DNA of 64,000 nt from Isoetes taiwanensis (lineage: Eukaryota; Streptophyta; Lycopodiopsida; Isoetales; Isoetaceae). The DNA lies in assembly GCA_021234155.1 (NCBI GenBank), contig JAJEKV010000013.1:17551616-17615615 (forward strand), read 5' to 3'. Positions within the stretch are counted from its first letter, which is position 1; every line of letters begins with the position of its first letter. Shown here one piece after another: positions 5,717 to 64,000 of the stretch. The notes beneath the pieces are model-generated. The model was not told the origin of the DNA. It made no database searches and saw nothing but the letters and a program-made list of their open reading frames with translations. The translations under genes were made by a program, and so were the position numbers.

Positions 5717-5986
5717 GCACCAAATGTTATGTCATTCCTCATCACATTCCATTTAATGCTTCACTGGGATTGTGGCATATAGCCACTCGAGTGTATATCT
5801 AGTCTAAAACCATTTTAGCTCCATCAGCATATGTCCAAAAGATAGCAAACCAATTGCAACTCGAACAACCTGCCACTGCCATCATGTTTAACAAGCCACA
5901 CAAGAGTCATTAATCTAATCTCAGCCACTGTTCAATAAGCTTTTTAGACCACGAAGTTTTGAAATTCCAACACAGTAGTATAACTG
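5717..5986. other. No gene recognised
   Basis: No supported frame, repeat or regulatory motif was found. Confidence 0.3.
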
Positions 5987-7057
5987 TTGGATTCAAATAT
6001 TTGTCATGCCCATGTGATGTTTGATGGAACACATGGCAATTACATGTGGAAACATATGGTCTATCCTAAAATATTATATTTGCATGCTTGTGTTATTTTT
6101 AAAAAAGGAGAAAAAGCAAGAAATATAACGAAACAGAAAAAGGAGAAATTTGTGGTTTGTTTATACGGCCTGGGCAGTGAGCGGCAGCGTGATTTCGCAT
6201 GTGTGGTTGCACCTTCTGGCATCGAAATCACTGATCCGGACCGGATTGTTGCTGTGTTACCCAAAGAAGAATCCATTTTATTTGATAGTTGTGGCAGTGA
6301 CCGAAACCTTGACATCTGTGGCAGTGGCCGATATGCAGAACTAAAGCATCTCAGGTTTTATTTTGTTCAGTATTATCTTGTGCCAATCTGCTGTGTTATA
6401 TCCTATTCATGTGGAAACATATGGTCTATCCTAAGTTTATTTGAGTCTCTTGGAATAGAACTTAAGTTTAGTTCATCTTATCATCCTGAAACAGATGGTC
6501 AAACAGAAAGGACTAATCGAACTCTCGAAGCTATGTTACGAAGCTATACTGCAAATAAACCTACATTGTGGGAAGATTATTTTCCACTAATAGAGTTTGC
6601 CTATAATAGCTCCTTGCATGCTTCTACAGGTGTTACTCCTTTCCATGCAGCATATGGCTTTACTCCTCGGGCACCTACTAATTGGTTGGCAAATTCTCGA
6701 GTAGAGATGGCTAATCAAGTTGTCAAGGAGATGGGTGGTATTATTACTGCCGTAAGAGATAAGTTAAGTCATGCACAACTTCAACAAAAGAAGTTTGTTG
6801 ATCGCCATCGAAGACACTTAGAATTTTTGGTAGGAGAGAAGGTGTTGGTGTACATTGCACCACACCGTTATGCTTCCGTGAACAAGAAGTATCTAAAGTT
6901 ACGAGCAAGATACTTTGGACCTTATGAAATATTGCGCAAGTTCAATGATGTAAGTTGGATCAAGGGAAGTGGCTTTATGCTAGACGGTATTTTCTTTTAT
7001 TATGAAAAAGATATGCAATTTGTGTTGATATCTCAATGTTTTCTCAGCATAAGTTAA
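5987..7057 (+). mobile_element. Ty3/gypsy fragment: integrase C-terminal half
   Basis: From about 6,440 the translation is a Ty3/gypsy integrase. It includes the SSYHPETDGQTERTNRTLE block with the catalytic-Glu region, then WEDYFPLIEFAYNSS, TPFHAAYGFTPRAP and the downstream DRHRR...F-VGEKVLVY...KL-ARYFGPYEIL region. The upstream 5,987-6,400 part of the open stretch is not recognisable as integrase. No LTR, RT or chromodomain was found beside it. This is a fossil piece of an element, broken and incomplete. Confidence 0.8.
6043..6433. repeat. 26-bp perfect direct repeat flanking 340 bp
   Basis: CATGTGGAAACATATGGTCT plus ATCCTA occurs at 6,043-6,068 and identically at 6,408-6,433. The 339 bp between them do not read as integrase, whereas the sequence after the second copy does. 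The pair looks like a duplication or template-switch footprint inside the fossil gypsy fragment. Confidence 0.8.
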
Positions 7058-31220: not shown

Positions 31221-31609
31221 ACTCGTGGCTCTAGACTTGGCGGTGCACGGGCCTACTTGCCTGGTGCCTTTACTGGCGAAATGCCCGATTCAACGCAATT
31301 ACATGATGTAATGACCATAGGATTCATATTACGAACAGAAGTGTCGAGTCCAAATAGACAATGCGCACCTTCTTAAGCTAAAAAAATGACAACCCGTGTT
31401 CATATCATTTAGACGACTCCACACAAAACAAACAAAATCCAACACAAAAAAACGAAACATGAAAACACACTTTCGAGCCACCAAAGGGCAACCCCTCGTG
31501 CGCAGCACCTTGTTAATGTTAGCCCATAATCTCTCTTTATAGACCAACATACCTAGTGACGTGTCACGGTAGTTATAGGTATAGCATATAAATACGTGGA
31601 AAGTCACAT

Positions 31610-32160
31610 TGATGATGCCCATTCTTCTATACGAGGCCGAAGTCTGGAGCACGGTGGTGTCTCTTGCTACCTAGAATGACTTGGAGCATGTGCAGAAAGC
31701 CTTCTTAGTATGGACAATGGGAGTGCAATTCACAGTCCCATATCAAATTATGCTACATGAGACAAGTTTTTTCCCTCTTCAAAGAGGATCGCCACATTAT
31801 CTACTTTCAAATAGTGGTCAATATGGACGATGCTTGTTTTCCCAACCTAGCTTACACCGCGGCAATGGAGCTGCAATGCCTCAAGGCCTAGAAGGAAAAG
31901 AGAGCTCAAGAGTGCCCTTGAACAGCTCAAGACGACACATTACTAGCACCACATACACACTGGAATGAGGCCCCAACAATACATGCATACCCATTTGCCA
32001 ATGAAAAAGTGCAGATCATTGCCTCAAAATGCACAGATGCACAACATCTTCGAAGTGAGACATGCAAATGGATTGGGGAGCCACGCTAAGATAGGCTTTG
32101 TCAGTGTTGCCAAGTGGGAGACAGTAAAGATGAATATCACACTCTTCAAAGTTGTCCATC
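31610..32160 (+). mobile_element. LINE C-terminal fragment
   Basis: Plus-strand frames give MPILLYEAEVWSTVVSL (the LLYG-EVW block that follows LINE RT) and LEHVQKAFLVWTMGV. Near 31,977 the frame reads YMHTHLPMKK, identical in order to YLHTHLPMKK in the minus-strand fragment near 52,690. In another frame HLRSETCKWIG...RLCQCCQ matches the HRLHMETGRW / RICKACE block at 42,870-42,950. The copy is dead, with stops and several frames. It ends just before the H3-like gene. Confidence 0.7.
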
Positions 32161-33344
32161 TATGTTCTAAAATTCCTAGACCCATAGATAGACCCTTAGG
32201 GTTCTCCATTTTCACTTTTCTTCTCCAGCTAGCTGCTCTCCAGCCAATAAGGCAATTTTTAGGCGCTCGGAAGGCGATTGACATATTTCAAAACATGGCC
32301 CGTACCAAACATACTGCTCGAGTGGTTATGCCCGACAATTATACCAGTGCCCAAGTCCTTGCAGCTCAACAGAAGGCCAGAGAGGCTGAAGAACGAGCCA
32401 GATAGGCAGAAAACCCTAACCCTAATCCAGATGCTGAGGAAGGAGACTAGCAGCAGGAGGAAGCCCAAGATCAAACCCAGGAGCCAGATGATCAAGAAAA
32501 CCTTGAGGATCAGGGAAATGACCTGGAAGAGGATGACGAGGAGGGCGAGCCAATTCCAGAAGAACTAGCACGTCGACTGGAGAAAATGGCCAAGAAGAAG
32601 AGAGCAGTGAAGAGGAAGAGAATTGCGGAGAGGGAGGAGCGCAAAAGACAAAGGGAGAAGCAGCAAAAGCTGAAGGAGGCCAAAGGGAAGGACCCCGAAA
32701 TGCCCAAGAAAACCTGGAGGAAGACAAAGTCAACACCAGCAAAAGGGGTGAGTATAAGGGAGCGAGAGCCCGACAGGCCACCGTCGTCTTCATTGGACAC
32801 AGACTCGGACGAGGATGCGTCAAGAGTGCCCCGCCCAACAGAAGGTTCCGGACCTTCAAACCCAGAGGAGGAGGAGGACGAATCTGCAGCAGCACTGCCA
32901 CACCCGAAGTGGCCAAAGCCAACAACTGAACCAAAGAAGGGCAGACCGGTTCGGGAATCCTTTGTACTCAAGCATGAGCGGGAGTACAGGAAAAAGTTAA
33001 AGGAGTACAACGAGTACATGAAGATGTACGAGAAGTACTCAAAATTTTACGAGGCGAATAAGGTGACGTACGTGGAGGGAGGAAGGCCAACAAAGAAGAA
33101 TACCTTTACGCCGCCTTGGAGAGACCAGTACCACCAAAGAAATCAATGAAGAGAAAAGCAGACTCCTACTTTGCAAGAGCGGCTAGGGAGATTCGTCATT
33201 TTCAGAGGAGCTACGGACTGCTGATTCCAAGAGCTGCCTTTGCAAGACTCACCCGTGAAATCCTGCAAGAATTTGACAAGACAAATAAAGTAACAGATGA
33301 CATGTTACTTGCATTGCAGAAGGCAGCAGAGCAAAGGCTGGTCC

Positions 33345-33945
33345 TGTCAAATATAGAGCACAAGGATTAGAATTTAAATCTTCTACACAATCAAATCTAG
33401 TCCCAGTCTTTATTTAAACTTGTATGACAACCAACTTCTATCTTCTAGCATTTCAGACAATGCTATCCATCTATCATCTAGCATTTCACACAATGCTAAC
33501 AATGCAATTAGACATCGTATTTAACATCATTGCTAAGGTCAATAACCATTGGAATAACTTAACGTATAATTCACTGTTCATTCAATAAAGTGACGCATCA
33601 TACAATCGAGCTGCTAAAGTCTTTTACATCAAACCTTTTGCACTGAAACGACCGCTCAGATTGAAGAGCGTTCAACCAGCCGAATCAACTGATCATCCTT
33701 CTTGTTTTTTAAATTAGCAATCCTAACCGAAGGCAGTCGGTTGAGGATCAAGCACGGCTCCATCAGGTTCATGATGCCGGATTCTATTGGACCGAAAATT
33801 CTTTTTCTAACTTTAGTCTTAAACCTATAAACAGGTTAAAATTTCATAATGTAAAAATCGGCCCAATATATAACCTTGCTTTAACCTTTGCAACTCTTAG
33901 CTTTTTCTTGTGATAAATCCAAACATGAACAAAGGCTTTTTCACA
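33345..33945 (-). repeat. Copia 3' LTR
   Basis: 601 bp, TGTGAAAAAGCC...TTTGACA on the minus strand. It carries GGTTATATATTGG (about 33,866-33,879 on plus) as a TATA-like box. The pol reading frame ends at the LTR edge, directly after a short purine-rich tract. Confidence 0.95.
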
Positions 33946-36874
33946 TTCTCCTTTCATGTTCTGGATTTATCTCTGAATCTTTGTGATCTCCTGTAATTAC
34001 CTTTTCAATGCCAAGCTCCTTCTGCAATTCCATAAATCTGTGTACTGGTAAAACTTTAGTGAAAATATCTGCTGTTTGTTCATTTGTACACTTGTATTCA
34101 ACCCTTATGTATCCTTTGGCCACCATGTCTCTGATATAGTGCACATGTATTTCTTTGTGTTTAGTCCTTTCGTGAAGGACATGATTTTTTGTAATTGCCA
34201 AACAGCTCATATTGTCAATGTACAAAGTAGTTGGTCCTTTCTGAATAGCAACCAGCTCATTTAATAATCTCCTTGCCCAAATGATTTCTCTAGCAGTCAA
34301 AGAAGCAGCATTGTATTTTGCCTCAGCAGTAGACATGGCGATGCATCCTTGTTTTTTGCTCCTCCATGCAACACAGCTACCTCCAACTTTTAAAACATAT
34401 CCTGAGGTGGATTGTCTTGAGTCCATATCTCCTCCCCAATCTGCATCCGAGTATGCTGTCAATTCAAGATCATCATTTGAAAAAGTTAGGCCTCTATTTT
34501 GTGACCCCTTTAGAAACCTCAACACCCTTTTTGCTGCAAGCCAATGCTGTCTACCAGGGTTCGTTCCGAATCTGCTCAGCAAATTTACACTGTAAGCTAT
34601 GTCTGGTCTACAGCAATTCGCTACGTACAACAAGCATCCAACCAATTTCCTGTATGGATACTTCTCCATTTCGATTTTTTCCTCATCATTTTGTGGACAC
34701 ATTCCAAGTGACAATCTTTGACCTGTGGCAATTGGTGACTTTGTGCTGTTACATTCAAGCATACCAAACTTTTTAAGCATGCCCTGAATGTTGTCAGCTT
34801 GTGTAAGCGTCATTCTCCTGAGTTCTCGATTCCTCTGTACCTCCATACCAAGGAATCTTTGAATGGATCCCAGGTCTGTCATGCAAAACCTATTACTGAA
34901 AATCTGTTTACAATGGTTCAGGCAGCCTATATCATTTGAAACAATTACGTTGTCGTCAACATATAGAGCAACAACACAGAAATGATTATTTTTCTTTTCA
35001 TTCTGTAGTTTCTCAAAACCTTGCTCTTTGAGAAACTTGTCAATACACAAGTACCATTGTCTACCAGACTGCTTCAGCCCATACACGGCCTTTTTAAGTT
35101 TCCACACTTTGCCTTCTCCTTGCTCAAACCCAGGAGCCTGCTGCATATAAATCTCCTCATCAAGTTTTGCATTTAGAAAGGCAGTTTGCACATCCATATG
35201 GTGCACTTCTAAGTTTAAGGCATTTGCAAATGCGAGTAAGATCCTGAGACTTGTGAGTTTCACAATAGGAGAGAAAGTTTCCTCGAAATCTATCCCTTTT
35301 TTCTGCGAGAAACCCTGTGCTACCAGCCTTGCTTTATATCTTTTCTCGCCATTATTTCCTAATTTCACCTTGAAGATCCACTTGTTTCCTACTATGTTTC
35401 TCCCATTTGGTTTTTCAACCACATCATAAGTTTCAGTCCTCTCAAAGGACTCCATTTCACGCTCCATTGCTCGTCTCCATTCTTTTGCATTTTCTCCTTG
35501 CATTGCATGTTCAAAGTCCTTGGGTACATCAGGATCTAAGATAGCCATTATTTCATTTATTTCAATCGGTTCCCTTTGCAACCTTTTGCTAGTTCCCCCC
35601 TCGTTCCTTCCATATTCTCCTTCGTTGATGCCTTCATTTTCGTCTCTTAAAATTTCTACTTCTGTACGCCTTCTATTTCTTCTTCCCTTCTCTTTATCTA
35701 GTTCGTTTGGATGCATGTTACTGACTTCAGTCTGTTCTCTAGATTCCAAACCAGATTCGTCTATGTCTGAATCTTCAATATCAAATCTTACCTTTTCACT
35801 ATTTTTGTCTTTCATATCAGTAAAAAGAGTGCTTCTGTCATCCAAGCTTTTTCTATTATTGTATAAAATGTCCTCATTAAATCTGACATCTCTACTTACC
35901 AGTATTCTCCTGTTTTCTGGATCAAAAATCCTGTAGCCTTTGGACATGTCATCATATCCAACCAAATATCCCAACACTGGTCTATCATCCAGCTTTTTTC
36001 TAAGCTCCTTTGGGATGTGTGCAAAACAAATGCAACCAAAAGCTTTTGAGAAATCATACCTTACTTGTTTGCTGCTCCACAGTCGCTCTGGAATTTCTCC
36101 TTGGATGCTAGATGATGGCAAGAGATTTTCGATGCACACTACGGTCTTCACAGCTTCCTCCCATAGATAATTGGGCAGCTCGCAATGTTTGAGCATTGAT
36201 CTAACTCCGTCTAAAATGGATCTGTTCTTCCTCTCGGCAACTCCGTTTTGCTGAGGCGTATGGCTGCAAGTGACTTGTCGCCTAATTCCTTGTGTCCTGC
36301 AATAATTCTTAAACACATTGTTCACATATTCTCCACCTCTATCAGACCTGAGACACTTGATTTTTCTGCCAGTATCTCTTTCTGCTTCGGCTTCGAAAAG
36401 CCTGAACGCCTTGTATGCTTGATCCTTGGTCCTGAGAAAAAAAAAACATTTCGTTCTTCTTGAATGATCGTCTATGAACGTAATGAAGTATCTCCTGCCA
36501 CGCATGCTTCTGATGTTCAAGGGACCACAGAGGTCAGTATGAACCAAGTCAAGTAAGTTTTCTGCTTTGTCTACAGTTCTTCCAAAAGGAAGTCTGGCAC
36601 TTTTTCCTAACATACAACCACGGCACATGAAATTGTCATTTTCTGCTGTAAAAATCAGACCCTCTTTTGCCAATTGTTTTATGTTATCTAAATGTGTATG
36701 TCCAAGTCTTTCGTTCCACAATTTAATGGTCGGAAATTGGACTGAATTTATACTTGCAGAATTATTGCGAAAGCCAAACAAATTGCCAAATCGTTTAGCC
36801 AAAAACTTCAATTCATCATTCAAGTAGATTTTACATGCAAGTTTGTCAAAACAAACTCTATAGCCCATATCCAC
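33941..36874 (-). CDS. Copia pol: integrase, RT, RNase H (fossil element part)
   Basis: A 977-codon stretch. The pre-integrase zinc motif lies at about residues 50-95 (H...H...C..C). The integrase core at about 105-235 shows the family Asp in HTDLCGP, Asp in RSDRGGEY and Glu in NGVAERKNR. The RT at about 480-720 carries YVDD. A Copia RNase H covers the last 200 residues (ADWGGD, STAEAKY, HVHYIRD). The protease-like remnant DDILVLDSG lies between gag and this stretch. It belongs to the element described above and is not a host gene. Confidence 0.92.
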   Translation of the reverse strand: MDMGYRVCFDKLACKIYLNDELKFLAKRFGNLFGFRNNSASINSVQFPTIKLWNERLGHTHLDNIKQLAKEGLIFTAENDNFMCRGCMLGKSARLPFGRTVDKAENLLDLVHTDLCGPLNIRSMRGRRYFITFIDDHSRRTKCFFFLRTKDQAYKAFRLFEAEAERDTGRKIKCLRSDRGGEYVNNVFKNYCRTQGIRRQVTCSHTPQQNGVAERKNRSILDGVRSMLKHCELPNYLWEEAVKTVVCIENLLPSSSIQGEIPERLWSSKQVRYDFSKAFGCICFAHIPKELRKKLDDRPVLGYLVGYDDMSKGYRIFDPENRRILVSRDVRFNEDILYNNRKSLDDRSTLFTDMKDKNSEKVRFDIEDSDIDESGLESREQTEVSNMHPNELDKEKGRRNRRRTEVEILRDENEGINEGEYGRNEGGTSKRLQREPIEINEIMAILDPDVPKDFEHAMQGENAKEWRRAMEREMESFERTETYDVVEKPNGRNIVGNKWIFKVKLGNNGEKRYKARLVAQGFSQKKGIDFEETFSPIVKLTSLRILLAFANALNLEVHHMDVQTAFLNAKLDEEIYMQQAPGFEQGEGKVWKLKKAVYGLKQSGRQWYLCIDKFLKEQGFEKLQNEKKNNHFCVVALYVDDNVIVSNDIGCLNHCKQIFSNRFCMTDLGSIQRFLGMEVQRNRELRRMTLTQADNIQGMLKKFGMLECNSTKSPIATGQRLSLGMCPQNDEEKIEMEKYPYRKLVGCLLYVANCCRPDIAYSVNLLSRFGTNPGRQHWLAAKRVLRFLKGSQNRGLTFSNDDLELTAYSDADWGGDMDSRQSTSGYVLKVGGSCVAWRSKKQGCIAMSTAEAKYNAASLTAREIIWARRLLNELVAIQKGPTTLYIDNMSCLAITKNHVLHERTKHKEIHVHYIRDMVAKGYIRVEYKCTNEQTADIFTKVLPVHRFMELQKELGIEKVITGDHKDSEINPEHERRM

Positions 36875-37177
36875 TAGGCGACCGATGAAATCAAATTCTA
36901 AACTATATTAGGTAACGCATAAGGCATTGCTTAGATTGACAACTTGACCATTCAAATCAAAACTTCCAAAATTCGGACTCCTCCACCCTCTGCAACTCTC
37001 CATCACCCATTTGCACGTAAACACCACTTCTTTTCTCGCTTTCTTTAAGTACATCGATGGTTTCTCGACTCTTCGATCTCTCAAATTCCCACTATCTAGT
37101 ACAAGTATGTCATCATTTTTGTTAGTTTCCTTTTTCGAGGAAATAGTGCAAAATAACATTGTTTGTTACCTCTCGCA

Positions 37178-38137
37178 TCACGGGTCATTTTCTTGAACTT
37201 CGCTTCTTGTGCCAAATTCACTTGCAACATTTTCATTTCTTGCTTTATACATGTTACTCTTTCCTCTTACAGCAGAATTACCATTCTTACCGTTATTCCT
37301 TGCTGAACCCTTTGGACTCGGACAGGCTGATGATATGTGACCAAAGCCTTCACAATTATAACACCTGCTCTCCTTTTCCTTTGCCTTGGGACAATTGCTC
37401 TTTAGATGCGCGTATGCTTTGCAGATGAAGCAAGGTCCAAGCTTGCTCTTGTCAAATCGTCCTCTCCTCTTTCCTGCATAAAGAACTTCTGCAGTTTCTT
37501 CTTCCTCCCCTTTAATTATTTTCCTCTGTTCGATCTCAGTTCTGATCATTAATTCAGCTTTTTCTCTATTCCTGTCAACACTTCTCACTAGTGTAGAGAG
37601 CTGTTCAAATTCAGAGAAAGCACGAGACAAAGAAAGTACATGGAAATCTTTGGTTATGGGAATTCCAGCAGCTTCCATATCAGCAATAATATTGTCATGT
37701 TTTTGAAAGAAAAGTGTCAGATTGTCTTCTTCTCTGAATTTCAGCTTCCTCAGCTCCCTATCCAACATCTCAATTTGTGAAGAGCTTTTTACCTCATAAT
37801 TTTTGAGCAGAAAATCCCACATTTGTTTCGGCGACTTTCCTTTGAGCTTGAACATGATGCTTGAACTAAGCTTGCTTGAGATGATACATCTGGCCTGTTG
37901 AGCCCTTTTTGCAATGCTTCCACTAGTTCCAGTTCCAGCATGAACAGATTCTTCACTTGCAGCATTACCTCCTGAGGTTGCACTGCTCTCACCTTCATCT
38001 CGTTCAACTCCTTCAATGAGATCCCAAAGATCTTCAGCCAACAGCACATCTTTCATCCTCTCCTTCCATGCTTGGAAGCCAGCTTCTTGAAATGTTTCAA
38101 CTCCACTCAACAAGGAGGATCCAAGTCTGGTTGCCAT
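37178..38137 (-). CDS. Copia gag (fossil element part)
   Basis: A 319-codon frame begins just inside the 5' LTR. A UBN2/gag-like helical region covers roughly residues 1-190 (LWDLIEGV, WDFLLKNYEVKSS, LRELKF-type blocks). Two CCHC knuckles follow, CFICKAYAHLKSNCP and CYNCEGFGHISSACP, in the last third. It packages element RNA in the family. It is described only as a part of the fossil Copia element. Confidence 0.9.
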   Translation of the reverse strand: MATRLGSSLLSGVETFQEAGFQAWKERMKDVLLAEDLWDLIEGVERDEGESSATSGGNAASEESVHAGTGTSGSIAKRAQQARCIISSKLSSSIMFKLKGKSPKQMWDFLLKNYEVKSSSQIEMLDRELRKLKFREEDNLTLFFQKHDNIIADMEAAGIPITKDFHVLSLSRAFSEFEQLSTLVRSVDRNREKAELMIRTEIEQRKIIKGEEEETAEVLYAGKRRGRFDKSKLGPCFICKAYAHLKSNCPKAKEKESRCYNCEGFGHISSACPSPKGSARNNGKNGNSAVRGKSNMYKARNENVASEFGTRSEVQENDP

Positions 38138-38143
38138 TAGTTA

Positions 38144-38155
38144 GCTCTGATGCCA
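38144..38155 (-). other. Copia primer-binding site
   Basis: TGGCATCAGAGC on the minus strand, one base from the 5' LTR. It resembles the plant initiator-Met primer site TGGTATCAGAGC that most Copia elements use. Confidence 0.8.
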
Positions 38156-38156
38156 A

Positions 38157-38757
38157 TGTCAAATATAGAGCACAAGGATTAGAATTTAAATCTTCTACAC
38201 AATCAAATCTAGTCCCAGTCTTTATTTAAACTTGTATGACAACCAGCTTCTATCTTCTAGCATTTCACACAATGCTATCCATCTATCATCTAGCATTTCA
38301 CACAATGCTAACAGTGCAATTAGACATCGTATTTAATATCATTGCTAAGGTCAATAACCATTGGAATAACTTAATGTATAATTCATTGTTCATTCAATAA
38401 AGTGACGCATCATACAATCGAGCTACTAAAGTCTTTTACATCAAACCTTTTGCACTGAAACAGCCGCTCAGATTGAAGAGCGTTCAACCAGCCGAATCAA
38501 CTGATCATCCTTCTTGTTTTTTAAATTAGAAATCCCAACCGAACGCAGTCAATTTAGGATCAAGCACGGCTCCATCAGGTTCACGATGCCGGATTCTATT
38601 GGATCGAAAATTCTTTTTCTAACTTTAGTCTTAAACCTATAAACAGGTTAAAATATCATAATGTAAAAATCGGCCCAATATATAACCTTGCTTTAACCTT
38701 TGCAACTCTTAGCTTTTTCTTGTGATAAATCCAAACATGAACAAAGGCTTTTTCACA
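38157..38757 (-). repeat. Copia 5' LTR
   Basis: 601 bp, the same length as its partner and about 97% identical by eye. Its minus-strand 3' end is followed by one base and then the primer-binding site. Confidence 0.95.
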
Positions 38758-38866
38758 GGTCCAGCACTTCGAAGATTCCTTAGCATGTGCTCTCCATGCG
38801 AAGAGAGTCACTTATATGCCTAGAGACATGAAGTTAGCTAGGTTCATAAAGAAGGAAGATTGCTAA

Positions 38867-39440
38867 CTTGATGTAACTGTAAAAATCTTTGTGAATATAA
38901 ATATGTTTTGATCAAGTTGTGAAGTGTAATATTGTGTTTAATGAGGTTGTAATAATGGCATGTGCAATCAGAATTAGTTAAATTCGATAAAAAGTCACTA
39001 TTTTGGGCCCCACCCCTCACAGAGTGCGCCAGGAGCATTTCCAAAAGTTTTGAGAATGCCTCTCACAAGACCGTGAGTGTGTGGCCACTGATCTATGTCT
39101 AGACTTGTCCAAATGTAGAAAGTAAGGGCACAACCCGCCTTAACTCAGCGAGATAACTAGGATTCCATCCTTAGATTGTAATTTTAGAGCCATTTAGGAC
39201 TCAAACAGGAGCCTACCCCTCACAGAGTGCGCCAGGACCATTTCCAAAAGTTTTGAAAATGCCTCTCGCGCACTGTGTGAGAAGCCATATCAAAATGACC
39301 CAAATTCATTCCAGGTACCTCCAAATTAGATAAAATTTCTTGCAGTAAGATCATCAGGAGGTACTCTTCAATCTAGATTACATGTCAATTGCATAGCAGG
39401 ACCTCATAGATATTCCCAAACCCTAAAAATTTCTCAGATT
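38867..39440. repeat. Direct repeats of about 55 bp, spaced about 207 bp
   Basis: ACCCCTCACAGAGTGCGCCA followed by GGA-CATTTCCAAAAGTTTTGA and AATGCCTCTC lies at about 39,008-39,062 and again at about 39,215-39,269. The region lies between the H3-like gene and the TATA box of the next ORF and is otherwise without a gene. Confidence 0.8.
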
Positions 39441-39448
39441 AGGGTTTT

Positions 39449-39458
39449 GCCTATAAAT
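39449..39458 (+). promoter_or_regulatory. TATA box of the 39.5-kb ORF
   Basis: CCTATAAATATGACC is a strong plant TATA box. It is about 120 bp upstream of the ATG at 39,571, with a CT-rich stretch between them as in many plant 5' leaders. Confidence 0.6.
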
Positions 39459-39570
39459 ATGACCACAACCCTCATTTGCATCCTACTCTATCACTCCTCA
39501 CTCCAAGGCGATCTTTCAGCTTCTAGAGGTGCTTCTAGATCTATTTGTTAACCCTAGCAGCATCAACATC

Positions 39571-39981
39571 ATGGCCACTTCTGCATTCAGGCGATGGTGC
39601 GGTAGCCACTTTGCTCATGTGGTCGAGGTCGACATCAACTCGATCTTCACTGTTTTCCAAAAGGAGATCGATGTGGATGCCACTATAAATGCCACACCTT
39701 TTTACCAAGAGATCATGACCGAGTTCCATGCCAAGATAGGACCTTCTCTGGTAGAACTTCCCCCATGCATAGGATATTTTGCACCTAGAACAGCCCTCCG
39801 TGTCGCTCTGAATGACATCCCAAATATAGACAAGTACCTAGAAAATAAAGCTGCTCGTATGCCAAATTACATGACTATATCCATAAATAGAAAGAGATAT
39901 TTCTCCTACACTGCAGCTGTAGCTGTCTTTTTGTCCCAAAGAGCCCAAATCCAGATAGGGGACCCTTTGTTCAACCACTAG
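39571..39981 (+). CDS. Hypothetical protein, about 136 residues
   Basis: The open frame runs upstream to 39,529, but the ATG at 39,571 (ATCATGGCC context, MATSAFRRWCGSHF) is the better start because it follows the TATA box at plant-like distance and has a favourable context. The peptide is well mixed (FYQEIMTEFHAKIGPSLVEL, PPCIGYFAPRTALRVAL) and looks like real, soluble, helical protein, but I know no family for it. The following acidic frame at 39,993 begins 11 bases after its stop in another frame. The pair may be remnants of one gene. Confidence 0.5.
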   Translation: MATSAFRRWCGSHFAHVVEVDINSIFTVFQKEIDVDATINATPFYQEIMTEFHAKIGPSLVELPPCIGYFAPRTALRVALNDIPNIDKYLENKAARMPNYMTISINRKRYFSYTAAVAVFLSQRAQIQIGDPLFNH

Positions 39982-39992
39982 AGATTGAACCC

Positions 39993-40328
39993 ATGGCCAC
40001 AGAAGCAGGTGAAGAGGAGCAGATGCTCCTGGACTATGAGGAGTCAGAACAGGAGGAAGAGGCCGAAGAAGGACAGGGATACGACGTGGAAGACATCATC
40101 GACGTCGACCCCATACAAGAAAGGCAGCAAGCAAGTTTCGAAGGGTTGAGAGTAACAAGGACAACACCTCCACTTGGGTTAGGCATCACCAGTCTAACCC
40201 CAGTCATTATCCAAGGGGAGGAGAACCTGACGCTCCATGATATAAAGAACCTCCCGGAGTGCAGAGACCGAGGTTACAGGGTGGACGAACTCATCAAGAA
40301 TGCCATGATAAATTATATGTATTTTTAA
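39993..40328 (+). CDS. Hypothetical acidic protein, 111 residues
   Basis: The frame begins MATEAGEEEQMLLDYEESEQ and is Glu/Asp-rich for its first 50 residues, then becomes mixed and proline-containing. The last codons (NAMINYMYF) run into an AT-rich repeat whose first 43 bp recur at 41,487-41,531. The natural C terminus has therefore probably been replaced by that repeat. No family is recognised. Confidence 0.4.
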   Translation: MATEAGEEEQMLLDYEESEQEEEAEEGQGYDVEDIIDVDPIQERQQASFEGLRVTRTTPPLGLGITSLTPVIIQGEENLTLHDIKNLPECRDRGYRVDELIKNAMINYMYF

Positions 40329-56700: not shown

Positions 56701-58111
56701 TTAGGCCTGCCTTAGAATCATCTAAGAATGGCCTCAAATCCCTTGTCTTAGATGCATATCTATATGTTAGTTGCCAAAAACCCCAACATAGACAGGCCAA
56801 ATGCAAATTTCCTGTATGTTGTTTTTTCCCGAAAATTTCAATGAGAACAAGAACCAAATACAATGAACTATAAACAAACAAACAAACAAACAGTTTAATA
56901 ACAACCAAACAACTAAGGGTATATGTACCCTTTACATACTTGAATTCTCGCTTGAATAGCTAGTCTCAGCCTCCTTAGAGTGGTTTGCAGCAAACAGCCC
57001 AGAAATTCCAGAAATTCAGCAAATGAGGCACTTAATAGGTAACAAATTAAGTAATACCTCGATTGAAGAATGACAGCATGCTCTTTTGTGAAGGGTCCAT
57101 AATATCCTTTCGAGGCCTTCCATGCTCATGCACTTTGTCCTTCTGGTTCTTTTCTTTGGCACTTGATTTTTGAACATGTCTACTGCTCTTTATATGCTCT
57201 TTCATGTTTTCAACCACATCTCCTCTTGGCGGGAAGAGGAGTAGAGACCTTTGATAAATGACACACAAAATGCAAATATCTTCTTTCTTTGCATAGCCTC
57301 CAAGTGTGTCTTTATACAACTCGAACACGACACCGGATTGCTCAACAAAAGGACCAACTTTCAAAGCCATACACTCTTCAACTGTTGCCCTATTTTCAGC
57401 CATGAGATCAGTTACCAATATCTCTTTTGACACACTTTCCTCGCTGTGAGCAATGCTTTGTGAGTTTCTTTGCAAGCTCAGCTTGTGTTCCTTTGATTCT
57501 ATGTGGCGTGCAGGGTACATCATGTCATCTCGTCCTCTTCCATATTTGATTTGGCATTCAAGGCACCAAATGCTGAACACTCCAACTCCATTGACATCCA
57601 AAGACATGAGCTCAAATCGATCTTTCTTACCCTGACGTTGCATTTTCATCTTGTATTTTCTAAAAGTGTGAATCCACCTACATGTATTAGCCCTTGATGC
57701 AAATTCGGACTGCAACCTGCCTTCAAACTCGACACTTAAACTTGTTTTTTCTTGATTGGCTGGGGTCTGATCTGCAACCTCAATGGCAGCCACAGATACT
57801 TCTTCTTCCAGCTCATTAATCACGAGGCGTCTTCTCTTGAAGGACTGCAAATGTACTTGAGTTTCTAGTACACGAACAAAGACCTCCTCATCTGTAACTT
57901 TGTACCTTTCCTCCTGCTTTTTTGATAAAGGAAGCTTCCTTTCACCCAAGAATACAAACTTATGTCCATCCAAGCGATCGACCTCATCCAATTCTATAGC
58001 TTTTCTCACATCAGCGTACGTTGCATTTTGCTTCACTTTGACGAACCCAACCTCAGAGCATTTCTCGGTCCCATCAACTGCAGACACAATGATATTTGCT
58101 TCAAATGCCAT
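53729..58111 (-). pseudogene. Large spliced transposase-like gene, decayed
   Basis: Exon 1 (58,111-57,058) encodes a ubiquitin-like N terminus (about residues 5-82) and two CC-HH zinc fingers (C183, C186, H203, H209; C280, C283, H306, H312). It ends AATCGAG/GTATTA and joins in phase at 56,811 after AACATACAG. Later blocks are CMDITEAYSRGKFEGKPALW, GGRRMHNFVSMNFGGPS, VPTIVAEDETIIKKAVQW, VGSGEEGYRNIVDAFE, GPLIGHSSDGDARRR, IHGLHDKDFIHNSKKLINPL, RRDRQNW and GSDACENFFSKINGM. The D of AEDET, D of SDGD and E of CENFF are a candidate RNase-H-like DDE triad. Introns at 55,850-55,360 and about 54,571-54,485 have good borders. Stops interrupt at about 54,899, 54,614 and 54,221, and there are frame changes near 56,680, 56,550 and 56,180. 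I know similar uncharacterised proteins in plants, algae and corals, but no family name. No terminal repeats were found. Confidence 0.7.
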
Positions 58112-58649
58112 TTCCTACAGAAAACCCAAAGAGAGAGTTAGGAAGGAGTACTGCAAACATCTATTGACTAATTGAACAAAACTTAAGCTCCTCCTGCTCC
58201 TTCTAAACCGAATCACATTCAAGCCCGGGGTTTCTGCCAAGATTGCAAAAAATAGAGATAACCAGTTTGCAATTTCTTCACCAAAACGAGATATCCTAAC
58301 ACTGGCAAGCAAATAGAAAATAAATTTGGATTCTAACCTCCTGAAATTGTTCTTCAAGGTTTTCTGATGGGTTATGAGAGTTTTTCAAATATGTTTCTTG
58401 GGTGGCTCGAATTCCAGATTCGGATTCCAGAGAGATCAATCAATTGTTTATTCAAAACTTCAAGATTTGCCCCTAACTATGGCGTCTCAGATCTTCAGGA
58501 GGAGTGCCTAACCCTCCTAACGTATGATACGGCTTTGCTCCTTCCCACCTATCTTCCCCTTCTCGACCACCTACGGCAAAATGGTGGTCGAGACGTATTT
58601 CTTCTTTGACCGTATACGGACACTTCAATTCAAAATTAACCCCTAATCA
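58112..58649. other. Upstream region with 11-bp-arm hairpin
   Basis: 5' flank of the transposase-like gene. TCTCGACCACC (58,561-58,571) and its exact complement GGTGGTCGAGA (58,583-58,593) form a hairpin with an 11-nt loop. CGTATGATACGG and ACCGTATACGGA flank it loosely. These could be a terminal structure of a small element, but no partner was found. Confidence 0.45.
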
Positions 58650-61600
58650 GTCACGGTATTGCAACATATGCCTTCAACATGGTGAAATCCCTGGGGTCAG
58701 TTTCAAGGATAAGGAGCAAGCAGGTGGTTCAAACTACTCCAAAGCAGTGAAGCAGTTCTTATAGTCCATCCCCAAGGAGAAGAGGCAGGAATGTATTGAA
58801 AAGCAGTTGTGCTTCAGGTGCTTCCAGCCAGGACATCCGACACATAACTGCCCATTTGTGATGAATGCGGCATTAGCAGAGCTAGGAGAATGAGAGACAC
58901 ACCCGGAGATCGACGAAGAAGATGCTCGAGACTACATCCAGGGTGAGTGCCACATCTTTGCTGTTATTGACTCCGAGAATGCTGAGAGTCAGTACCAGGT
59001 CATTTCGACGATTGGGAAAGTTAGAGCCAAGTCCTTCATAGACACAAGAAGTACCCACAATTTTGCTTCGCCAAGGATAGTAGAGATGTTGAAGCTGAAG
59101 CCTTTGAAGTCTAAGCCTAGATCGGTTGTGTTGGCAAGTGGGGCAATCCGACACACAGCAGGGAAGAGGATCAACTTCGACATAGACTTGCCAGGTATCA
59201 ATGTTAGAATGGGAGCAGAAGTGATGAACATCGGCAAGTACAACTTGATCATAGGCATGGAATACCTTGGATCGGCTGGAGCTGTGATTGATTATGGGAA
59301 GCGAAACGTAATCTTAACGATGCCAGATGGCAAGATCATTGAGATAAGAGGTACAGAGGTCACCCCAATCATGAAATGCATGTCTAGTAAGAAGTTACTT
59401 ATTTGCATAAAGAAGGAGCAAGTGGCCTATGTCTTTAAGCTCGAAGTTGACGAACAAGAGGCAGAGGAAGACAAGGAGGCCAAAGCATTGAGCAAGCTGC
59501 CAAAGCCTATAGCCAAGTTGGTGAAGGAATTCCATGATTTGTTCCCAGATGAGATTAAGCAACTTCCACCTTACAGAAGAGTCGAGTGTGAAATAGCACT
59601 TGAGCCCGGAACGAAGCCAACAAAGTAAGGTACCCTACAGAATGTCACCTCACGGAATTGAAGAAGCAATTGCAGGAGTTGCTAGACCTAGGGTTTATAA
59701 GACCTAGTGTCTCTCCATTTGGAGCGCCATTACTCTTTGTCAAGAAGAAGGATGAAAGTCTCAGAATGTGCATTGACTATCATCAATTGATCAAGCACAC
59801 CATCAAGAACAAGTATGCGCTACCTCGATCAGATGATTTGATGGATCAACTGCAAGGAGCAAAGCTTTTCTTCAAAGATAGACTTGAGGTTAGGCTATCA
59901 CCAGATCAGAATCAAGGAAGAGGACATCCATAAGACTGCTTTCAGGACAAGATATGGCCATTACGAGTTCACGTGTGAGTATGCACCAGTAAAAATTGGC
60001 TTCCATGTACACTGGGGCTGGTGATGCCATTTAGATTGTTCAATGCTCCAGCAACTTTCATGAGGCTCATGAACGATATTTTTCGCGAATTTCTAAATAT
60101 ATTCATCATAGTTTTCTTTGATGACATTCTAGCCTACGACAAATCCTTAGAGGAGCATGCTCAATACTTGAGGAAGGTACTTGAAAAGTTGAGAGAAGGC
60201 ATCAAACTTTATGGTTATCCAAGTGTCACTTCAAGGCTGTAAAGGGTAGAGTACTTGGGGCATGTGATCACAGCAGAAGGGATCTCCACCCCACCCAAAG
60301 AAGATCAAGTGGTAATTGATTGGCGCACCAAAGAATATCCATGAAGTCGGGGAGCTTCCCGCTTTGAAGTGGTATTATAGGAAGTTCGCCAAGAACTTTG
60401 CAAAGGTAGCGGACCACTAATAGACCTCACCAAAGCGAGAAGATAAAAATTGGGCAAGTCATTGGCAAAGGAAGGCCCATACAAAGATTTTGGACGTTGA
60501 AGGAAGCTTTAATGATCGCCCGGTCTTAGTGTTGCCCCGATCCGAGGAAAGATAAGTTGGTGGCAACATATGCCGCCAAGATTGCAACGGAGGGGTCTTG
60601 ATGGGAAGGGAGGGGTGGTAGCGTTATGATTCAAAGGAAGATGAATCCAAGACGCCTGAAACACGCTACCCAACCCATGACCAGAGTTGCTAGCGATGGT
60701 GAGAGCATTGAGAATATGGAGGCATTATCTCACGGGAAGGAAGTTCCAATTGAATACGGACCATCAAAGTCTACAATATGTCTTCAATCACATCTCAACT
60801 TGAGGCAAAGGAGATGGATGGAGTTCCTAGAGGAGTGCGACTTTGTCATTGTGTACAAGCCATGCAAGCTCAATGTGGTTGTGGACGCGCTTTCAAGGCA
60901 TCCCTTGATGACCGAGGTCCACAACAATGCCATATCAATACTCACCCGATGAGTTTGGCAAGAAGATAGAAGAGACGTTGCCTCTAGGCCGAGATTTCAA
61001 GGAAGCATGGGCAAGCCTTTCTAAGGAGGCAAGAACGGACAAAGAGAGGGAAACCTTCAAGGATTTTAAGAAGGAAGGTAACTTTGTATCATAAAATAAA
61101 TTGTATGTACCCGGAGGTATCAAAAGTCGAAGTTGATACTCCATGACACACACAATAGTCCAATAGTCGGACACGCCAGGTTTTTAAAGACCTATTTTAA
61201 GATCGGAAAGCAACTACTTCTAGCCCGCATGAAGAAGCAAAGGCCGTGTACATTCGCGAAAGCCATTGCTATGTCGCCAGACAAAGGCGAGAACAACTCA
61301 ATTTCACGGAGCTTTAGAGCCATTGCACGTGTCGAATGCTAAAATGGGAGATAATCGGCATGGACTTTATCACATGGCTCCCGAGAACCGTAAGGGGCAA
61401 AGATGCCCTAATGATGGTGGTGGACAAGTTGTCGAAGATGGCACATTTTGTGCCGTGCAGGACCACAGACACGGCTTTAGACACCGCCTTATTGTTCACC
61501 AAAGAGATCTTTAGACTCCACGGGATGCCGAGGGAAATAATCTCGGATAGAGACTCGAAGTTCATGAGCGCATTCTGGGAAGATTTGTTTAGCATGATTC

Positions 61601-63088
61601 AGACAAAGGTCTCCATGACTAGGACATATCATCCTCAGACAGATGGGCAGACGGAGCGCACAAATTGAATCATAGAAGACATGTTGAGAAACTATGTCTG
61701 GAACAAGTAGTCTAAATGGAATGATTTTATTCACTTGGTGGAATTTGCCTATAATAGCACCAAGCAAGAATCTTCCTAGATGTCGCCCTTCATGATTAAT
61801 TATGGGTATCAATACTTGGCACCAGATACGTGGCACAACCCAGTGTCCAAAGTGGAAGTCTCTCAGCAGATCTTATCGGATATGCAGCAGTTAATGGAGG
61901 AGGTGAGAGGATATCTCATAGCAGCGAGAAGCAGGCAGAAAAGCATAGCCAGTAGGCACAGAACAATAAGAGAATTCCAGGTTGGGGACAACGTATGGCT
62001 GAAGATCAAAGTCAAGCAAGCGAAGCTCCGCATCGGCAATTGCAAGAAACTTTCTCCAAGATCATTCAGGATAACCAAAAGAGTAGGTAGCCAATCCTAC
62101 AAGTTGGACCTGCCAGCGCATCTCAAGATCCATATGATCTTCCATGTAAGTCTCCTGAAGAGGCACACTACTAATCCAGAGGAAGTATTGAAGACAAAGA
62201 GTTACTGGAAATGACGAACGATCAGCTTGAAATCATCCCAGAGGTTCTTCTTGACAGGTCCTATAAGAAGACAAGAAGATCCCAATTTCTCCAATACCTA
62301 GTGAAATGGGTGCATTTACCTGTGAAAGACGCTACGTGGGTACTACAATCAGATTTGGAGAAGCAGTACCCCCAATTCATGGAGCAATGCAAGGGTCGGC
62401 TCGTCACCGAAGTGGTCGACACTGGACCGATAGGTGAGTGTGAGGTAGATTAAGAAGTCTACTTCCGTCCCACGGAAGTAGACGAACTTGAGAGATAAGA
62501 GGTCATTCAGGCATACATTAATAGGAAAGCACCTCTAGTCAATGCTTACTATGGGAAGGACGCCATCCTTCACGCCAAAGGCAACTAAAGGTGTAGGCAT
62601 GAGTGATCATCTTAGGCATGATAGGGCGTTGTCTCCACGGCCAAGATGGAAGAAACATCATCTTCCTACGCCGGGAGATTAGCCTTGCATCCATATAAAT
62701 TGTAATTAATGGGTGGTTCCCTAATAACCAACTTTTAAATAATTGAATGTAAACTGACGTAGCGTGTTGACCTGCAGGCCAATAGAGGAGTCTAGCGGCA
62801 GGAAGGTCGCACTCCGAAGATTTGCAACACATGTTTTGTCATAATGTGTTGCAAGGAGACCAAATGGAACCTTGATTATAGAATTTTGGAACTATGATTA
62901 TAATAATGGCGTAAACCACAAGATTTTGTGAATAATAGATGATAAAGTAAGAGGGTGAAAGGTCCCCTCACCATAGTATGATCTTAAACAAGGATGTGTT
63001 ATGAAAATTAAACTTAAATATTACCTTGGGGTAATTGTCTTGTAAAAATTATATGCATCAAATGTATTGCAGGGTATGCAGGTTTCCA

Positions 63089-63150
63089 AGGTGGGGAGAC
63101 GTGTGATGCTGGGGACAGCATCAATCCAAGGTGGGGAGATTGTGACGTTC
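63089..63150 (+). repeat. Duplicated polypurine-tract segment
   Basis: CCAAGGTGGGGAGACGTGTG (about 63,089-63,108) and CCAAGGTGGGGAGATTGTG (about 63,126-63,144) are two near-identical copies 37 bp apart, the second abutting the LTR. Several plant chromoviruses carry such repeated tracts just before the 3' LTR. Confidence 0.6.
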
Positions 63151-64000
63151 CAGCATAACATACGGTCCGAATATGTATATCATACTACCACGTCACACGT
63201 ACATGTCACCATGACAAGTACTTGAGAGCCGTAAAGAGTTGCACCTAAGGGGCAACCTCGTATGTTGCACATGTATATTAAACATATGAAATTAAACCCC
63301 TTGCCAAGTGGCAATACCCCATTTGGTCCCTTCTGCATGTATAAGGAACAAAAGGGAAAACCCTAAACCTTTTCCACTTTCGCATTTTGGATTCCCTGAG
63401 CTATTTTGGCCAAGGTAAACTGCCATTCCGCATTGCCAGGTGCCGCTGAGCCACCTTTACACAATAGATTCCTCAGGAGCAGTTGTGGCATGGACGTGAT
63501 TCGAGGAGCTGGAGCAAGCCAAGAATCAGGTAACCTGCGATTCTGTTGTGCAAAGCCGACTCTTAGCTCGACAATGAGCTAGGATAGTATGTTATATCAG
63601 TCTTGGCAGCCTTGTAGATCCTAAGATCACCAGCTATAATGAAGGAACCTAACCATGTATGTTAGGTAAGATAGATTAGATCTTATTCAGTATTTCAGTT
63701 CTTTGATGATGATGATGTTCCATTCTATGCTCTCCTGTGTATGTGGGAAGGGGGTAGAGACCCTGAAACCTTCAGTAGCAGATGATCCTAGATGACCTCA
63801 TTAATTCCCAATTAGTGCGGCCCGTGTACAAGAGCCCGCCTAGTTGTGAGTGGCGAGGCTAGACCGGTGGAATAAGGGGGACTTGTTCCATCACGGATTG
63901 ATTCCTCCGGTGTGTAAAGCCTACCGGGGATCTTAACGAGCTAGGCTTAATGGTTTGCCACTGCGTGTGGGCAAGGCATGAGCTCAACACCTATTGGGTG
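63141..64000 (+). repeat. Chromovirus 3' LTR (runs off window)
   Basis: Starts TGTGACGTTCCAGC directly after AAGGTGGGGAGAT, a typical polypurine tract. The 860 bp to the window edge are non-coding. The CA end is not reached or not identifiable, so the length is a minimum. Confidence 0.7.

Follow-up and report, generated by a model that had tools for sequence, protein, structure and literature searches.

A histone H3-type gene in the Isoetes taiwanensis genome is the first long open reading frame of a chromovirus-type Ty3/gypsy lineage

Introduction

Histone H3 is the substrate by which plants mark transposons for silencing, and the ordinary protein has a tail of ~40 aa that contains K4, K9-S10 and K27-S28. 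Within a 64,000-nucleotide stretch of the Isoetes taiwanensis assembly (C941:17551616-17615615, the whole of which is called the window here), a gene starts like H3, continues into a much longer charged tail and reaches a histone fold that is interrupted by a Copia element. This locus raises the question of whether such a gene belongs to the host, as a variant or centromeric H3, or to the mobile DNA in which it lies, and what a histone of this form might do.

Results

Structure and decay of the H3-type gene

The window gene, for which the term ORF1 is used below, begins at an ATG at 32295 with the H3-type N-terminus MARTKHTARVVMPDNYTS... (MARTKHTA), and its parts are as follows.

32295 to 33116, plus strand: ORF1 H3-type N-terminus (MARTKHTARVV) and long acidic/basic tail
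33068 to 33344, plus strand: ORF1 continued in another frame, with the pre-fold segment, alpha-N, alpha-1, loop 1 and part of alpha-2
33340 to 33344, plus strand: Copia target-site duplication GGTCC, left copy
33345 to 38757, minus strand: Ty1/Copia element within the histone fold (gag_2, integrase, RVT_2), from Pfam matches and an LTR pair
38758 to 38762, plus strand: Copia target-site duplication GGTCC, right copy
38763 to 38866, plus strand: ORF1 end, with the second half of the H3 fold and a TAA stop (38864-38866)

The H3-type start and divergent H3 fold recognized in a preliminary description were both confirmed, as the Pfam Histone profile matches the first half of the fold at 33062-33370 (E 2.9e-9) and the second at 38759-38863 (E 3.8e-6). 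Except for the Copia insertion the fold is collinear with H3; when read through, it shares 51% identity with host H3 (93 sites) and 45% with an Arabidopsis CENH3 reference (94 sites). An AlphaFold model of the first half, made without an alignment, places helices at the expected H3 alpha-N, alpha-1 and alpha-2 with a mean pLDDT of 60, which is too weak for a fold search. The tail is long and charged, as had been described, but it does not form a single open frame with the fold; TAG stops lie in frame at 32403-32405 and 32448-32450, and tail and fold are in different frames, with a frameshift between about 33068 and 33116.

The fold had also been said to stop at a GGTCC and to resume past a Copia element, and this is exactly what is found, with GGTCC at 33340-33344 and again at 38758-38762. 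The Copia LTRs (33345-33945 and 38157-38757) differ at 19 of 602 aligned sites (K = 0.032). Since this GGTCC-flanked element lies inside the fold, it arrived when the histone-bearing element described below was already resident.

The gene is the ORF1 of a broken Ty3/gypsy copy

We conclude with high confidence that the H3-like gene of the window is the ORF1 of a chromovirus-type Ty3/gypsy element, present here as an old and broken copy. In the lineage to which this element belongs, the 5'-most long ORF encodes an H3-fold protein and precedes ORF2, gag and pol. The lineage exists in many copies and at least two families, and in the copies examined the fold is under purifying selection. The earlier proposal of a lineage-specific H3 variant or its decayed paralogue therefore survives insofar as the gene is divergent, long-tailed, decayed and of H3 type; it is not a host variant gene, being ORF1 of a high-copy transposon. 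The window element, assigned to a group of copies called family B, extends from 32,167 to a 3' LTR that starts at 63,141 and runs past the window end.

32167 to 40295, plus strand: left part of the family-B Ty3/gypsy element (leader end, ORF1, ORF2), split by Copia, from DNA homology to relatives from 32167
39571 to 40295, plus strand: ORF2 remnant in two matched pieces (39571-39843, 40215-40295), common to family-B relatives
58708 to 59628, plus strand: zinc knuckle and aspartic protease region of gag-pol
59649 to 61243, plus strand: reverse transcriptase and RNase H region, with stops and frameshifts
61243 to 62363, plus strand: integrase and C-terminal chromodomain (62187-62363), from identity to a bounded family-A element
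63141 to 64000, plus strand, on to coordinate 64633 (633 bases past the window): 3' LTR (TGTGACGTTCC... after the CCAAGGTGGGGAGA polypurine tract), with the end GGGGACGTCACA

At the DNA level, the window is homologous to family-B loci from 32167 onward across ORF1, and again after the Copia element through ORF2 to about 40.3 kb; the open frame 39463-39981 in the ORF2 region has no Pfam match. A stretch from 40.3 to 58.7 kb separates the ORF2 remnant from the zinc knuckle/protease region. In one relative (L037) ORF2 directly abuts the protease/RT region that sits at 59.6 kb in the window, so that L037 is probably the same element with an internal deletion. The window integrase (61243-62196) is 70% identical, and its chromodomain 68% identical, to the bounded family-A element described below. 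The window matches family B or A in the 3' LTR as well as in ORF1, ORF2 and pol. The only LTR-type hallmarks of the window element are the 3' LTR and polypurine tract; a 5' LTR was not found upstream of 32167 within the window, and the capsid part of gag gave no match in the window with family-A gag as the query.

A recurrent motif of about 70-90 bases is seen in the family-B leader and again in the spacer between ORF1 and ORF2 (window 39012-39081 and 39215-39281; L041 2417-2503 and 2628-2717, reverse strand; L043 1860-1942 and 2074-2157). It partially matches itself on the opposite strand and could be a structural or splicing signal.

Several other features of the window were observed in passing. 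On the minus strand, 21833-22707 matches family-A LTRs at about 69-73% and is a remnant of another element of this lineage, while 57047-58114 holds a 355-codon open frame with no Pfam match. Between 40524 and 43474, a pair of direct repeats of about 490 bases, 2.46 kb apart and 91% identical in two blocks, is possibly a small LTR element nested in the histone-bearing one. The sequence at 31500-32166, which adjoins the truncated element start on the left, resembles by eye the 3' end of a LINE reverse transcriptase, and 5984-7057 probably comes from the C-terminal end of a gypsy integrase (SH3_Tf2-1 match at 2.1e-5, under the curated cut-off).

Family B has full-length relatives in the same genome

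Searches of the I. taiwanensis assembly (1,658,258,908 bases, 1110 contigs) produced the intact long-tailed relatives for which the preliminary description had proposed to look. With the window tail as the query there were at least 151 matches, itself included (150 scored of 12,250 first-look candidates, which like all such numbers given here is loose and not a copy number); the best relatives are 86% identical and several are open for 300-537 codons. In L038, L039 and L042 (388 aa) the tail runs into the fold in one frame. When L042 was used as the query, at least 118 rows were obtained (106 of 28,484 candidates scored), and 10 of the 118, including the query, are stop-free over residues 1 to 386-388 at 57-100% identity. 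Nine of these ten ORF1s were read, among which L049 and L050 contain a stretch in another frame and L048 is without five fold residues. A chance joining of tail and fold is thus excluded, because relatives encode both in a single frame (L038, L039, L042 and the nine full-length ORFs).

Family-B ORF1 has about 290 residues ahead of the fold. Its histone assignment is carried by the Pfam Histone match in L042 (E 4e-20) and by a PDB search with L052, which returned H3 chains (1.4e-20). The left end of a family-B element is given by L043, where a 5' LTR (126-1656) is followed by a primer-binding site (PBS), TGGTATCAGAGC, at 1658 and then by ORF1 and ORF2, and this element continues in L054 with gag, knuckle, protease and the start of RT; the L054 piece has no pol match beyond that start. 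No target duplication was seen for any family-B element. A search of viral contigs with the family-B ORF1 alignment gave 128 pattern stretches, none of them a relative.

Two stop-free family-B ORF1s lie on one contig (C907:46167956-46169119 and 46751453-46752616) and are 99% identical, which we read as a recent insertion or a segmental duplication.

Family A and a fully bounded element

A genome search with the Pfam Histone profile (150 of 8705 candidates scored) revealed a second family. The 15 best rows (E 7.2e-46 to 1.9e-45, profile 2-122) were taken as canonical H3 genes, 8 of the 15 being fetched and confirmed. Open frames of 300 codons or more contain 55 of the other 135 scored rows, and for 36 the frame reaches 400 or more; 19 loci from among the 135 (L009-L027), picked largely for long frames, form the family-A comparison set. 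An open H3-bearing ORF1 is present in 16 of the 19, a common left boundary in 13 (among the hits listed) and an exact PBS in 11. ORF1 of this family joins some 300 unrelated N-terminal residues to an H3 fold that is nearly canonical: in the three rows compared it shares 85-89% identity with host H3, and in L016 its Pfam Histone E is 4.1e-43. The N-terminal parts of three family-A ORF1s gave no match at E 1 or better in a PDB profile search.

One family-A element (C1047; L016/L029/L032) is fully bounded, with LTRs at both ends, a polypurine tract and a CCATT target duplication on both sides. Its 5' LTR in L016 spans 442-2014 (1573 bp), the tRNA-Met PBS TGGTATCAGAGC stands at 2016, and the ORF1 methionine is at 2729. 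The order is H3-ORF1, ORF2, gag (with a zinc knuckle), protease, RT, RNase H and integrase with chromodomain, and frame breaks are present in ORF2, gag and protease. The 910-aa pol ORF of L029 matches RVT_1, RNase H, H2C2, rve (just below the curated cut-off) and Chromo (PF00385, E 2.4e-8). The two LTRs share 91.7% identity in their longest aligned piece, which means that the insertion is not recent. The element therefore holds a chromodomain integrase and an H3-fold ORF together, a putative reader beside a relative of its own substrate.

Comparison of ORF1 between families by hhalign covers 177 columns (E 3.9e-22), of which the fold is the convincing match and the part before it aligns poorly; no convincing A-B homology was seen in the rest of ORF1 or in ORF2. 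To the eye the two ORF2s are similar, but their profiles match at E 0.2-0.28 and homology is not claimed.

H3 or CENH3 origin

The possibility that the window gene is centromeric had been raised, and it is not supported here. The CENH3 references in the alignment and trees are plant sequences, and in these references we see a two-residue loop-1 insertion relative to H3 that we take to be the CENH3 marker. When nine family-B folds and the window were aligned with them, this insertion was absent from family B. The tree groups family B with these plant CENH3 sequences (UFBoot 96). In a test from which six redundant or damaged rows were dropped, however, placing family B with H3 cost only 6.4 log units and could not be rejected (p-AU 0.06), so that the CENH3 grouping is not significantly better. 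The family-A fold is near canonical H3, and family B is more divergent. With an Arabidopsis CENH3 fold as the query (150 rows scored of 6892 candidates), an Isoetes CENH3 was not identified; the top 15 rows are the places of the 15 canonical H3 rows, and later rows include element loci such as L015, L017, L024 and L025.

These results bear on the alternative that transposons amplified a host H3/CENH3 variant gene or carried it along as a hitch-hiker, which would make the window copy a paralogue of a host gene. The H3-type start and fold would agree with such an origin, as would the CENH3 grouping in the tree and the EIRHFQ and LLIPxA motifs of family B, which resemble plant CENH3. It is nevertheless highly improbable, since both families have ORF1 within LTR elements, flanked by the PBS and gag, the loop-1 insertion is missing, all PDB matches of a family-B protein among the 60 listed of 175 are H3 with no CENP-A, and the alternative topology stands unrejected.

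Purifying selection on the histone ORF

For family A, dN/dS was calculated pairwise (Nei-Gojobori) among 16 ORF1s, keeping those of the 120 pairs with dS 0.05-1.5. The fold has a median of 0.03 (from 46 pairs), the basic tail one of 0.131 (41 pairs) and the N-terminal part one of 0.14 (31 pairs); these loci were taken from among the best histone scorers, which biases them toward conserved folds, although their silent divergence still suggests constraint. Family-B loci had instead been selected for open frames and for resemblance, in the tail or across the whole ORF, to the window or L042, and seven of the nine ORF1s were used, L049 and L050 being dropped. Within two family-B clades the fold has dN/dS of 0.141 and 0.076, and a 75-column pre-fold segment has values of 0.063 and 0.088, still lower than or similar to those of the fold; between the clades synonymous sites are saturated.

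The low fold values (about 0.03 in A, 0.08-0.14 in B) suggest that the elements probably use their histone. In our reading, such constraint in transposon genes is usually kept only if the product serves each round of transposition, and we infer that the element would need the H3-ORF1 protein. A functionless host H3, captured by transduction and spread by hitch-hiking, is very unlikely in comparison. Gene capture by plant LTR elements is documented in a review on additional ORFs (PMC7264820), but fold dN/dS across the copies is 0.03-0.14 at dS 0.3-0.67, full-length ORFs stay stop-free down to 57% identity, and the constraint on the fold already contradicts a mere passenger unless ascertainment explains that constraint.

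The N-terminus and position 9

MARTKQTA is invariant in 7/7 aligned family-B ORF1s, so that K4 is kept. Position 9 is more variable. The N-terminus is readable in 18 of the 20 family-B loci at hand; of these, 10 carry M at residue 9 (two of them after a stop at position 8), 5, among them the window, carry V, and 3 carry K, whereas position 10 is V in all 18. One clade keeps K9, and in another, B1, residues 1-9 read ARTKQTARM. Residues after position 9 do not match H3 in either this clade or family B generally, and the short H3-type tail (~40 aa) with its K9-S10 and K27-S28 context is absent. In family A, the H3 tail is buried within the fusion of about 300 residues and there is no free H3 N-terminus; its K9-like position varies (ARKSG in L025, PHRSG in L011, PVRGG in L009), which counts against one simple rule for both families.

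Work on the H3K9M mutant describes its tail as a trap for Clr4, the H3K9 methyltransferase of fission yeast, and shows an H3K9M peptide in the G9a pocket with residues 3-12 ordered (PMC5030085). The M9 form of family B has residues 1-9 of this peptide in common but not residues 10-12.

Discussion

A possible role in chromatin

The best overall reading of these sequences, we infer, is an element-encoded H3 variant that would act in chromatin against or around H3K9-based silencing. As the 5'-most long ORF, ORF1 may be well translated from genomic RNA. The collinear H3 fold suggests pairing with H4, and the ORF1 protein would most likely pair with host H4 through its unchanged fold geometry. The element-specific H3, or an H3-H4 complex containing it, would then be placed on element DNA or host chromatin, where H3K4 writers and readers could still be engaged by the ARTKQTAR end that it preserves. 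Because the family-B tail is without the ordinary K9 context (M or V in 15/18, V at 10), such chromatin would resist silencing by H3K9 methylation. This anti-silencing step of the family-B histone is put forward tentatively. A more specific version is unlikely, namely that the retrotransposon evolved an anti-silencing histone whose K9-to-M/V tail would trap or starve host H3K9 methyltransferases, or build nucleosomes immune to H3K9 methylation, while the integrase chromodomain would read host H3K9me in the choice of landing site. Any role in evading K9 methylation fits the families unequally, as the A tail is buried and its K9-like position varies, with K in some copies; moreover, one family-B clade retains K9 and the residues after 9 are unlike H3.

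Tethering and packaging are the main rivals to a role in chromatin. In the first, histone chaperones, H4 or H3K4 readers would serve as docking sites to which the H3 fold and ARTKQTAR would bring the integration complex or virus-like particle, thereby steering integration together with the chromodomain. The presence of chromodomain and H3-ORF1 within the same bounded element and the invariant MARTKQTA of family B are consistent with this, but family A is missing the free H3 N-terminus, and tethering poses no obvious need for a fold held at dN/dS 0.03; it is possible, if doubtful. In the second, the protein would compact element nucleic acid as a nucleoprotein, in the particle or after reverse transcription. 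The fold, which is of a DNA-binding type, and a very basic stretch in the tail would suit such a protein, yet gag already has a zinc knuckle and the family-B tail has an acidic stretch, and we consider packaging quite unlikely.

Significance of an element-borne H3

Plants mark transposons through H3, and a transposon lineage with its own preserved H3 would reverse that relation and make the histone code itself a battlefield. The elements offer a natural, selected set of H3 variants for testing which positions matter in silencing. They are also a warning that, in genomes of this kind, many of the genes annotated as histones or CENH3 may be transposon ORFs.

Comparison with known systems

No histone-carrying retrotransposon was found among the top matches of the open-access full-text literature. 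The word "histone" is absent from the main text of the I. taiwanensis (PMC8566536) and I. sinensis genome papers, as it is from that of the additional-ORF review (PMC7264820) and of a giant-transposon review.

Compared with canonical H3, the Isoetes proteins have a collinear fold and, in family B, a common ARTKQTAR start, but they are about 240-260 residues longer in B and about 280-325 in A, and are transposon-borne. They differ from CENH3 in that family B has no loop-1 insertion. Parallels to the proposed interference with H3K9 methylation are also known. H3K9M, a dominant inhibitor of H3K9 methyltransferases (PMC5030085), shares ARTKQTARM at 1-9 with a family-B clade and differs from residue 10 onward; the oncohistone mimic EZHIP (PMC12713659) serves as a comparison case for this clade alongside H3K9M. 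The geminivirus protein TrAP, an inhibitor of plant SUVH4/KYP (PMC4606454), gives a precedent for a plant genetic parasite that blocks H3K9 methylation, although TrAP is an unrelated protein and acts on the catalytic domain.

Among transposons, the nearest systems are the chromoviruses, including the Tcn1-like group of non-seed plants (PMC3350952, PMC2864245), with which the Isoetes elements have in common LTRs, a tRNA-Met PBS, gag-PR-RT-RH-IN and a C-terminal chromodomain. The Isoetes elements differ from these in having two extra ORFs before gag, the first of which ends in an H3 fold. An orchid Gypsy lineage with an AlkB demethylase (PMC9289625) has likewise kept a host-derived domain that is plausibly aimed at host control, whereas in Isoetes the cargo is a core histone, constrained in two families.
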